43,233 nucleotides of DNA, from positions 1-43,233 of the forward strand of contig CANKAM010000030.1 in NCBI GenBank assembly GCA_947479755.1, given 5' to 3'. The translations under genes and the position numbers were made by a program. The first letter of the stretch is position 1. The number at the start of each line of letters is the position of its first letter. The notes beneath the pieces are model-generated. The model was not told the DNA's origin. It did no database searches and worked only from the letters and a program-made list of their open reading frames with translations. The DNA is from Bacteroidota bacterium (GTDB lineage: Bacteria; Bacteroidota; Bacteroidia; SXHM01). Of the stretch, positions 5,495 to 34,237 are shown one piece after another.

Positions 5495-5545
5495 TATAAA
5501 ACAAAAAGGGATGAAACCACAGGTTTCATCCCTTTTTGTTTTATA
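5495..5545. terminator. Bidirectional terminator between DUF2795 gene and pheT
   Basis: A 24-bp perfectly paired stem (arms 5495-5518 and 5522-5545), with a GGGATGAAACC core flanked by A- and T-tracts on both sides, sits between convergent genes. The T-tract in each direction fits intrinsic termination for both. Confidence 0.92.
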
Positions 5546-11519: not shown

Positions 11520-11560
11520 AAATAAAAAGCCCCTTGCAATTTGCAAGGGGCTTTTTATTT
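11520..11560 (-). terminator. Intrinsic terminator downstream of the T9SS cargo gene
   Basis: A long stem with core GCCCCTTGC (11529-11537) pairing with GCAAGGGGC (11543-11551), extended by A/T tracts on both sides. It follows the stop at 11576 by 16 nt on the minus strand. Confidence 0.9.
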
Positions 11561-11575
11561 AAAGATAAAACAGTG

Positions 11576-12655
11576 TTATTTGGTAACAACCATTTTCTTT
11601 GTAAGTCTGTTTCCGTTAGCTTTCAAAGAGTAGTAGTAAGTACCTGCAGCAAGTTTTGTGTTCTCGATGCTGATGCTGTGACGACCGGCAGTTTTTTCAC
11701 CTTCATTAATCACAACTGCTTTTCTTCCGTGAACATCAAAAATCTCCAGTTCAACAGCGGTTGTATATTTTTCCAACTCATATTGAATAACTGTGTTTCC
11801 GTTCATTGGGTTAGGGTTGTTTTGGCTCAATTTTAGGCCGTTGAAAAATTCAAGACTTTCAACACCGATGAAGTTCTCGTCAATTACAGCAAAAATGGCG
11901 ATGTCGTTATCAACGTCATCAGTTCCGCTTGCGCTGAATGCGAAGTCAGTAACATACCATGAACCTTGGAATTTGTGGAATGCATAGTCTAATCCGTCAG
12001 CATCACCAATCTGGTCGCAAAGCAATCCTGCAGTATCTTGAGCTGCGTTCAGGTTTGTGAAATCAACAGAAACAGCAAAATCAGTTCCGTTAATGAATAC
12101 CGGAGTTGGGAAAGTAATAACGTTCCAATTTCCGAAAGTTGTGTCAATATCATCAAAGAAATAATCCTGTGATCCAAGTAATTGATTTGGTCCCGGTGAG
12201 TTTACTGCTTGTCCGCCTGCACCGTCTGTATTACGTGCTTTGTTTGCAGCCATACTGTAAACTTTTACTACTGCTTTTGAAGTAGCGCTTCCTGATACTC
12301 CTGTTTTCCCTGTGAAAAGTAACAGAACTTCTTCAATTCCTAAAGTTGATTGATTAACGTTCAGGTAACCTTGAGCGCACTCGTTTAAACCGTCAGCATT
12401 GTTTCCGTAAACCCAGCCACCACCTTGGTAACCGAAAGCTACAACTTCACCGCTGATACCGGCAAATATAGGAGCAAAATTTCCTGAATCAACCCATCCT
12501 GCAGTGTCAGTAGGAAGAGCTGATTGTGCAGGGTTGCTTACAGGAACCGGCATTACTCGTTTAATTACACCCTTGTTTTGTGTTTGCAATGTTCCCTGTG
12601 CAAATACCGTTGCACCTGAAATTAACATTGCTGTCATTAAGTAGATTTTTTTCAT
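11576..12655 (-). CDS. Secreted protein with T9SS type A sorting domain
   Basis: 359 residues. Signal peptide MKKIYLMTAMLISGATVFAQ. The middle is an acidic, Gly-rich beta domain without a family I recognise (WVDSGNFAPIF; a GNADGLNECAQGY region; paired Cys are few). The last ~85 residues are a classical type A sorting domain: LSQNNPNPMNGNTVIQYEL, EIFDVHGRK, and LAAGTYYYSLKANG ending KKMVVTK. It should cross the outer membrane through T9SS and be released or anchored. It has the best promoter in the window and its own terminator, so it is probably a well-expressed monocistronic gene. Confidence 0.9.
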   Translation of the reverse strand: MKKIYLMTAMLISGATVFAQGTLQTQNKGVIKRVMPVPVSNPAQSALPTDTAGWVDSGNFAPIFAGISGEVVAFGYQGGGWVYGNNADGLNECAQGYLNVNQSTLGIEEVLLLFTGKTGVSGSATSKAVVKVYSMAANKARNTDGAGGQAVNSPGPNQLLGSQDYFFDDIDTTFGNWNVITFPTPVFINGTDFAVSVDFTNLNAAQDTAGLLCDQIGDADGLDYAFHKFQGSWYVTDFAFSASGTDDVDNDIAIFAVIDENFIGVESLEFFNGLKLSQNNPNPMNGNTVIQYELEKYTTAVELEIFDVHGRKAVVINEGEKTAGRHSISIENTKLAAGTYYYSLKANGNRLTKKMVVTK

Positions 12656-22793: not shown

Positions 22794-22831
22794 AATAAAA
22801 AAACGCTCCCCATCGGGAGCGTTTTTTTATT
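22794..22831. terminator. Bidirectional terminator
   Basis: ACGCTCCC pairs with GGGAGCGT around a CATC loop, extended by A7 and T7 tracts (arms 22794-22810 and 22815-22831). Shared by the convergent VCBS protein and TonB receptor genes; its edge overlaps the receptor stop codon. Confidence 0.93.
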
Positions 22832-32564: not shown

Positions 32565-33566
32565 TTACCCGTTTATACTCTTCCAGATTGCATCTTTCAA
32601 CTTCATAATTCCCTTTTCAGTATGCGATGATATAAAAAGTATCTCAATTCCTTTCACTGTTTTCTTCACTTCCTTTTTCAGTGCAGTTTCTAATTCATCG
32701 TCTAGCAAATCACATTTTGAAATAGCCAGTAGGCGTTTTTTATGCAGCAATTCAGGATTGTATTCTTTCAATTCATTCAGCAGAATTTTATACTCTTTTG
32801 CTATGTCATTGGTATCGGCAGGAGCCATAAATAATAAAATAGAATTCCGCTCAATATGTCGTAGAAAGCGCATTCCAAGTCCTTTGCCTTCATGCGCGCC
32901 CTCAATAATGCCGGGAATATCTGCCATTACAAAACTCTTGTAATCGCGGTATTTTACAATGCCCAGATTTGGAACCAATGTGGTAAACGGATAATTGGCA
33001 ATCTCCGGTTTTGCTGCAGAAACTACCGATAGTAAAGTTGATTTTCCCGCATTAGGGAAGCCAACCAAACCAACATCGGCCAATATTTTAAGCTCCAGAA
33101 TTTTCCAGACTTCTTGTCCTTCTTCCCCTGGCTGTGCATATTTAGGAGCCTGGTTGGTGGAAGTTTTAAAATGGTCGTTACCCAAGCCGCCACGGCCACC
33201 CGGAAGTAGTATGTGCTCTTCACCGTTTTGTGTTATCTCAAATTCTATTTGCCCGGTTTCGGCATCTTTTACAATGGTTCCCAGCGGAACTTCCAATATC
33301 TCATCCTTACCTTCAGCTCCTGTTTTGCGTGAGCTTCCGCCACCTTCTCCCGGACCGGCAATAACGTGTTTACGGAATTTCAGGTGAATTAATGTCCAGA
33401 CCTGATTGCTACCTTTAAGAACAATGTGTCCGCCACGTCCGCCATCACCTCCATCGGGACCGCCTTTAGAGTTTTGCTTGTCGCGGTGAAAATGTTTTGA
33501 ACCCGGCCCGCCTGCGCCCGAACGGCAACAGATTTTCACATAATCAACAAAATTGGATTCTGACAT
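32565..33566 (-). CDS. obgE: Obg family GTPase
   Basis: 333 residues. The Gly-rich Obg fold (1-158: [35 protein letters not shown]) precedes a G domain with G1 GFPNAGKS, G3 DIPGIIEGA and G4 SKCD. The extra C-terminal OCT domain found in some homologues is lacking. It is a ribosome-assembly and stress GTPase in the cytosol. Conserved neighbour of adk and hpt. Confidence 0.96.
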
Positions 33567-33595: not shown

Positions 33596-33663
33596 CGTCA
33601 TGCTGAACTTGTTTCAGCATCTGTTTATAATTAATGAGATTCCGAAACAAGTTCGGAATGACG
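33596..33663. repeat. Pair of inverted 27-bp palindromic elements in the obgE-adk spacer
   Basis: Copies at 33596-33622 (plus) and 33637-33663 (minus) are 23/27 identical. Each forms its own 8-bp stem around a CTTGT loop (ATGCTGAA/TTCAGCAT versus ATTCCGAA/TTCGGAAT). All four differences are two compensating base pairs. Confidence 0.88.
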
Positions 33664-33667
33664 TTAG

Positions 33668-34237
33668 CTACTTATCAATCAAACTGCACAACGCAGCAAA
33701 AATATCATCAATGCTGCCTATGCCATTTACTCCGTGAAATTTTCCCTGAGCCGTGTAGTAGTTTTTAAGCGGTGCTGTTTTATTATTGTATTCATTAATC
33801 CGGTTGCGGATAATGCTTTCATTGCTGTCATCAGCGCGCCCAGAATCTTTACCGCGAAGCAAAAGACGTTTTGTCAATTCTTCGTTATCCACTTCCAGTG
33901 CCAGCATCATGTTAACGGATGTGTTTTTTCCTGCCAGCAGTTTGTCCAATGCTTCAGCCTGTGCTGTGGTTCGGGGAAAACCATCAAAAATAAAGCCTTT
34001 AGCATTTTTATTTTCTTCCAGCTTGTTGCCAATCATTCCTATTACCACTTCATCGGGAACAAGAACTCCGGCATCCATCAGTTTTTTGGCTTCCAGTCCA
34101 AGAGTAGTCTGGTTTTTAATTTCTCCGCGTAGAATATCACCCGTTGAAAGATGAACTAATTGGTATTTAGCAATCAGTTTTTCACTTTGGGTTCCTTTTC
34201 CTGCACCCGGAGGACCAAATAAAACAAGGTTAAGCAT
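33668..34237 (-). CDS. adk: Adenylate kinase
   Basis: 189 residues. P-loop GPPGAGKGTQ, LSTGDILRGEI, GFIFDGFPRTTAQAEAL, and RGKDSGRADDSNESIIRNRI, i.e. the short-lid form without a zinc Cys cluster. Interconverts ATP+AMP and 2 ADP. Sits between hpt and obgE, separated on both sides by repeat-filled spacers of ~100 nt. Confidence 0.97.
   Translation of the reverse strand: MLNLVLFGPPGAGKGTQSEKLIAKYQLVHLSTGDILRGEIKNQTTLGLEAKKLMDAGVLVPDEVVIGMIGNKLEENKNAKGFIFDGFPRTTAQAEALDKLLAGKNTSVNMMLALEVDNEELTKRLLLRGKDSGRADDSNESIIRNRINEYNNKTAPLKNYYTAQGKFHGVNGIGSIDDIFAALCSLIDK

Follow-up and report, generated by a model that had tools for sequence, protein, structure and literature searches.

The gap between the genes for adenylate kinase (adk) and the GTPase ObgE (obgE) in the window, the whole stretch of 43,233 nucleotides of Bacteroidota DNA analysed here, holds two inverted hairpins that differ from each other at four positions. 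This raises the question of what keeps such a pair of similar but unlike palindromes, how it spreads and why it is situated directly behind a gene. Each hairpin consists of an 8-bp stem, a CTTGT loop and an outward-facing CGTC tag (Table 1). The element takes up most of the 101 bp between the two genes; the adk stop codon is 4 nt from the CGTC tag of arm 2 (TAG-CTAA-CGTC), and the obgE start is 29 nt from the element. The element is conserved with the same arms in the related genomes G001 and G004, and in G003 and G005 the adk-obgE gap holds an unrelated repeat instead. The spacer is unlike the spacers of other copies and is nearly conserved at the adk-obgE locus in two related species.

Table 1. 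The paired element (window positions 33596-33663) and the genes that flank it
Feature	Position	Strand	Description
Arm 1	33596..33622	+	CGTC-ATGCTGAA-CTTGT-TTCAGCAT-CT; commonest arm type of the genus, 65 of 149 sampled arms
Spacer	33623..33636		14 nt, AT-rich, between the CT tails
Arm 2 (inverted)	33637..33663	-	CGTC-ATTCCGAA-CTTGT-TTCGGAAT-CT; seen in 3 of the 149 arms sampled; also present in further families of the class
adk (adenylate kinase)	33668..34237	-	NF001381, 238.7 bits (cut-off 187)
obgE (GTPase ObgE)	32565..33566	-	NF008956, 426 bits (cut-off 300); next gene downstream of adk

These hairpins belong to a repeat dispersed through the genomes of an uncultured freshwater Bacteroidota genus, whose closest named records are metagenome-assembled Bacteroidetes, several of them freshwater by our reading of the isolate names. 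In the genome to which the window belongs (3.9 Mb in 112 contigs) a two-arm pattern yielded 63 exact matches against 0 for the reversed pattern, and a stem-neutral pattern, which specifies GTC, CTTGT and CT but none of the 16 stem bases, yielded 137 against 7 for the reversed control. Whole convergent dimers number 233 across all seven genomes of the genus (37, 7, 23, 31, 47, 50 and 38), with 0 in the reversed control. In a class-wide survey the dimer was present in 22 of 395 genomes and 10 of 197 genera. No Rfam family scored over its threshold, the best match reaching 21.3 bits where the gathering score is 97, and a literature search with core 11-mers of the repeat returned only unrelated items among the matches listed.

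Pairing within the arms and affinities of the repeat

The four differences had been read in the earlier note as two swapped base pairs within otherwise identical palindromes, and this description proved accurate: they fall at stem pair 3 (G-C in one arm, T-A in the other) and stem pair 5 (T-A and C-G, respectively), and the tag, the CTTGT loop and the CT tail are the same in both arms. The differences are compensatory within each arm, not between the arms. Both strands of the pair fold better than all 200 dinucleotide shuffles, and the lowest-energy fold is a long inter-arm hairpin in which the same four differences become mismatches.

The stem differences among the genome copies do covary, as the note had expected. 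Among 149 arms, obtained as stem-neutral matches from sampled stretches of three genomes, every arm has at least 5 Watson-Crick pairs and 121 have 8. Pair 3 is found in all four types (GC, CG, TA and AT) and pair 5 as TA or CG, pair 1 is A-T in 147 of the 149 arms, and pair 2 is T-A in 81 and C-G in 65. The mean of 7.74 pairs per arm compares with 6.60 when the 3' halves are shuffled (shuffle maximum 6.86). Scored for covariation, the 29 distinct types reach 0.360; shuffled sets give 0.163, none of 500 equalling the real value, and slid partners do not exceed 0.136. On the same 29 types, measures based on the number of pairs or of types show no excess over shuffles (equalled by 134 and 479 of 500 shuffles). 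A full in-place change of the stem is seen at one orthologous locus, with ACCCCGAA/TTCGGGGT in the window's genome, G006 and G003 versus ACACCGAA/TTCGGTGT in G001, and a stepwise series of arms runs from ACCC/GGGT (48) through ACCC/GTGT, with one side changed (5), to ACAC/GTGT, with both changed (1).

Given that the copies covary, a hairpin is kept in each arm, either by selection or by hairpin-templated mutation; template switching inside the hairpins could be the source of the covariation. Hence, the claim that the paired structure itself is kept survives for the family, but not as compensation at this site: the arm with ATTCCGAA recurs in other Bacteroidia families, and the window pair is therefore no record of a local event. 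It is, judging from the sequences compared, a combination of two old arm subtypes common to Bacteroidia. Local compensatory mutation as the source of the swapped pairs was rejected on the grounds that both arm types recur elsewhere and that G001 and G004 share the arms.

The pair fits membership of the published CGTC-tagged REP superfamily, nearest to its CGTC-2 class, as described in 2013 by Di Nocera, De Gregorio and Rocco (PMC3733652), who name Bacteroidetes among the host phyla. The unpaired CGTC tag is present, with a C before GTC at almost every stop-facing end listed, and the tag, the 8-bp stem and the 5-nt loop are those of CGTC-2. With CGTC-2 and CGTC-3 the repeats share inverted dimers among which heterodimers predominate, and with CGTC REPs in general a location mostly downstream of coding regions and the lack of a linked transposase, the search here covering Y1 transposases. 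There are also departures from the published description (PMC3733652). Complementary A/T is given there as almost invariable at stem positions 1 and 2, whereas the second pair is T-A or C-G in our repeats; the common tail there is CCA and here CT plus a variable base, with CT fixed in several search patterns and the tail thus not freely sampled; and, unlike CGTC-2, the dimers sampled here include no homodimers and have short spacers that differ between copies. The tight placement behind stop codons and the exchange with other repeat families between species, described below, are further points of difference from CGTC-2 that the present data bring out. A sister family with GAGCTTGTCGAAG (L061:2348-2408, L129:4496-4554 and L123:1654-1713) was also noticed, the stem of which would contain tandem G-A mismatches around the same CTTGT loop.

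A comparable arrangement is known from the REP/BIME elements of E. coli, namely inverted unlike palindromes between genes, a significant share of them 1-20 nt after an ORF, and those at most 15 nt from a stop codon are reported to stall ribosomes (PMC12306157, also for Liang et al. 2015, and PMC6006769). The likeness lies in the inverted intergenic pairs of unlike palindromes placed close after ORFs; the E. coli elements differ from the present ones in their GTAG-type tag, their cognate RAYT and their sequences.

Transposases and the pairing of unlike arms

REPINs, reportedly described together with RAYTs by Bertels and Rainey in 2011, are said to be units of two inverted palindromes that occur in many copies per genome. 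The window pair resembles them in both respects but shows neither linkage to nor co-occurrence with a RAYT. The earlier note had named a RAYT-like Y1 transposase acting in trans as a candidate for recognising the hairpins, and the window's genome indeed encodes two Y1 proteins, one of them a RAYT over cut-off (L032; NF047646, 108 bits, cut-off 80) and the other a shorter IS200-like protein (L031). The candidate nevertheless fared poorly. None of the 15 Y1_Tnp loci in seven genomes of the genus, a search directed at Y1 transposases, has a repeat arm within about 1.5 kb on each side, in contrast to the flanking of the RAYT gene by repeat copies that marks RAYT-associated REPs (REPtrons), and the tag is CGTC, not of their GTAG type (GT[AG]G). 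RAYTs exceed the cut-off in 132 of the 395 genomes of the class, with no association between them and the repeat (8 of 22 repeat-bearing genomes, as judged from best E-values, versus 124 of 373 others; p=0.82). The RAYT locus moreover carries a different palindrome of its own. Mobilisation by a cognate RAYT is thus very unlikely and was dropped as the leading model, even though inverted pairs with outward tags look like REPINs and the opposite orientation of some dimers at orthologous loci would suit a site-specific enzyme.

The RAYT gene at L032:900-1947 (G000 C18), the motifs of which match subclass 2.6 of Bacteroidetes (PMC6006769), is preceded by a tandem array of CCGTAACCGTTACGG palindromes with a 41-bp period, in place of CGTC arms; these palindromes are perhaps the RAYT's own repeat family. 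The second protein (L031:1492-1917, G000 C86; 141 aa, motif YISNQEEHH) is similar to the uncharacterised subclass 1.2 of the same source and was likewise set aside as a mobiliser, flanking repeat copies being absent there too. The 2013 paper reports CGTC repeats as being without a dedicated transposase, which left their spread open (PMC3733652); the missing RAYT link is now extended to 395 genomes. In this genus the mechanism can be studied across numerous copies and close relatives, with the help of empty sites and of what look like in-place inversions.

The dimers are composed of unlike arms with great regularity. Among the 75 listed of the 233, 74 combine arm A (ATGCTGAA) with some other arm; the last (G003 C4:221719) has a half-converted arm and the same spacer as G001 C3:37646, whose A arm is intact. 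In the sampled stretches 78 of 78 dimers combine A with a non-A arm, where random pairing of the arms would make 31 alike (minimum 18 in 20,000 shuffles). At further loci 62 of 62 do so, this set being held out from the 78, with its G003 dimers overlapping the listing of 75. Homodimers are accordingly 0 of the 140 sampled genus dimers, against about 40% alike under random pairing. Outside the genus, where 25 of 27 dimers were listed, 23 of the 25 have unlike arms; of the two exceptions, that in G058 is a homodimer and that in G087 a near-homodimer. Since pairs of ACCCTGAA with ATTCCGAA occur among these, the rule is that the arms differ, arm A itself being dispensable. The order of the arms relative to transcription shows no preference (A upstream in 21, downstream in 20). 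In RNA folding the natural homodimer of G058, which lacks the mismatches, reached -51 kcal/mol and a heterodimer -37.3 kcal/mol. The inter-arm fold is mismatched exactly where the arms differ, which suggests that evolution keeps pairing within the arms and prevents full pairing between them.

The usual agent against long palindromes is SbcCD. Protection from this nuclease was the reason suggested for unlike arms in the 2013 paper (PMC3733652). A search for SbcD (TIGR00619) gave a score over cut-off in 0 of the 7 genomes of the genus, with one weak match, and the same search gave matches in 13 of 14 control genomes, 8 of them over cut-off, so that a divergent SbcD could escape it. SbcCD cleavage of homodimers was for this reason rejected as the sole cause of unlike arms; as SbcCD seems absent, homodimers would have to be lost in some other way. 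A strict rule of unlike arms without a recognisable SbcD thus calls the SbcCD explanation into question.

Placement after stop codons and exchange between species

Elements in the sampled stretches occupy 38 convergent, 51 co-directional and 5 divergent gaps, from totals of 168, 570 and 218 such gaps, respectively; the figures for G001 alone are 7, 16 and 2. The stretches of the window's own genome were picked around known copies and are therefore enriched in copy density, most of those from G001 were taken along contigs, and the genes are simple ORF calls, some of whose starts and orientations will be wrong. The dimers begin about 5-6 nt past the stop codon. They lie at most 15 nt from it in 59 of 67 co-directional cases, namely 32 of 38 in a first set (median 7 nt) and 27 of 29 at held-out loci (median 6 nt), and convergent dimers usually leave about 5-6 nt on each side. 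Where at least 50 nt are free downstream, 8 of 10 dimers are at most 15 nt from the stop versus 1.5 expected, and in long gaps at held-out loci 3 of 4 versus 0.67 expected. Other inverted-repeat families of the genus show stop-facing ends within the same 15 nt in 27 of 32 cases (CGTCATTGCGAG), 13 of 13 (CCACTAAG), 8 of 8 (CCACAGATTAC) and 5 of 9 (GAGCTTGTCGAAG type).

Gaps were compared between species at 16 co-directional or convergent sites of the window's genome that hold an element and have an orthologue in G001 or G004. The element is retained in the other species at 8 of these. Of the 8 gaps without it, 4 contain a different dispersed repeat by an automatic test based on repeated 12-mers, which misses low-copy families; by eye, 7 hold another inverted repeat and the eighth is a 12-bp gap. 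A score for ungapped inverted repeats missed the other families, being too strict. By comparison, 48 repeat-free gaps of the window's genome are repeat-free in the other species in 44 cases, hold another repeat in 3 and this element in 1 (Fisher p=0.006). Five loci carry the dimer the other way round in a second species, and since the rare ATTCCGAA arm is kept at three of the five, these look like in-place inversions. One clean empty site was found, in G004, which lacks the whole element, spacer included. Within the window's genome 52 of 53 spacers are distinct. Change at orthologous loci amounts to 2.7% in arms, 3.1% in spacers and 7.2% in flanks, in related species pairs that are non-independent and from which pairs with strongly differing arms were excluded. 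As the spacers differ between copies yet change as slowly as the arms, each copy appears to have begun with a spacer of its own.

Taken together, we consider it reasonably likely that the window pair is a dispersed CGTC-tagged REP heterodimer which acts as a hairpin at mRNA 3' ends, spreads in trans by an activity unlinked to it and has arms that are kept different as a guard against loss. The element probably functions at the 3' ends of mRNAs, here that of adk. Its main role would be that of a hairpin closing the upstream transcript, which would halt 3'-5' exonucleases, encounter the ribosome at termination, as reported for E. coli REPs, or both. We propose that unlike arms persist because two identical ones would form a perfect inverted repeat, about 26 bp per arm with a short spacer, prone to loss. 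Counting against this explanation is the observation that the arms evolve no more slowly than the spacers at orthologous loci. Hairpin-templated mutation could restore pairing without selection, and insertions could be driven close to stop codons by a need to spare the promoter that follows. The common placement of several repeat families about 5-6 nt after the stop connects dispersed repeats with mRNA 3' ends in a way that can be tested.

A bolder reading, which we hold tentatively and regard as somewhat doubtful, is that the bases after the stop codon are a standing slot in which unrelated hairpin families (CGTC-AACTTGTTTC, GAGCTTGTCGAAG, CGTCATTGCGAG, CCACAGATTAC, CACTAAG and others) interchange and flip, as a modular, sequence-independent 3'-end or termination device kept by dispersed repeats. 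If true, it would mean that families replace one another between species at the same post-stop site. Set against both readings is the view of the elements as neutral insertion debris that survives near stops given that other places are harmful, the families sharing a gap by chance. Some orthologous sites indeed lack any insert, the gaps are short and divergent ones contain few copies. However, the crowding of dimers against the stop where ample space is free, at the new loci as well, and the excess of other repeats in gaps that lack the element in the other species (4 of 8 versus 3 of 48 by the automatic test) make this view rather unlikely.

Mutation instead of selection might likewise account for the covariation, in that template switching in the hairpin (quasi-palindrome correction) would repair an arm against itself. 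Both the stepwise series of arms and the half-converted arm beside an unchanged spacer are what such a process would leave. Correction between arms should yield homodimers, though, of which the sampled dimers contain none, and the tight placement after stops would be left unexplained; we judge this account unlikely. An ordinary Rho-independent terminator of adk would explain a stem-loop directly after that gene, and a scan does flag 33600-33620 as terminator-like, though that site is on the + strand. The adk strand shows no site combining a GC-rich stem with a T-run, and the dispersal of more than a hundred near-identical copies over co-directional and convergent gaps alike argues for a repeat family, so that a terminator is very improbable. 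Elsewhere in the window, long perfect stem-loops of 17-24 bp near stop codons (5495-5545, 11520-11560 and 22794-22831) are likely terminators.

Several further observations concern the spacers and loops of individual copies. A minority of dimers share a structured spacer of about 47 nt (L117:9518-9612, L121:18991-19085, L179:10468-10562 and 12176-12270, and L104 of G001), which is conserved between copies and species; these dimers may have been copied whole. At G003 C1:1002882-1003071 two tandem dimers have almost identical 28-nt spacers, a local duplication. At L043 and L106 of G001, orthologues of L130:11478 and L181:10394, the hairpin tips are replaced by small palindromes (CCCGATAGCTATC and TCCGCCTTAGGCGGA, respectively), as if the hairpin loops accept nested inserts.
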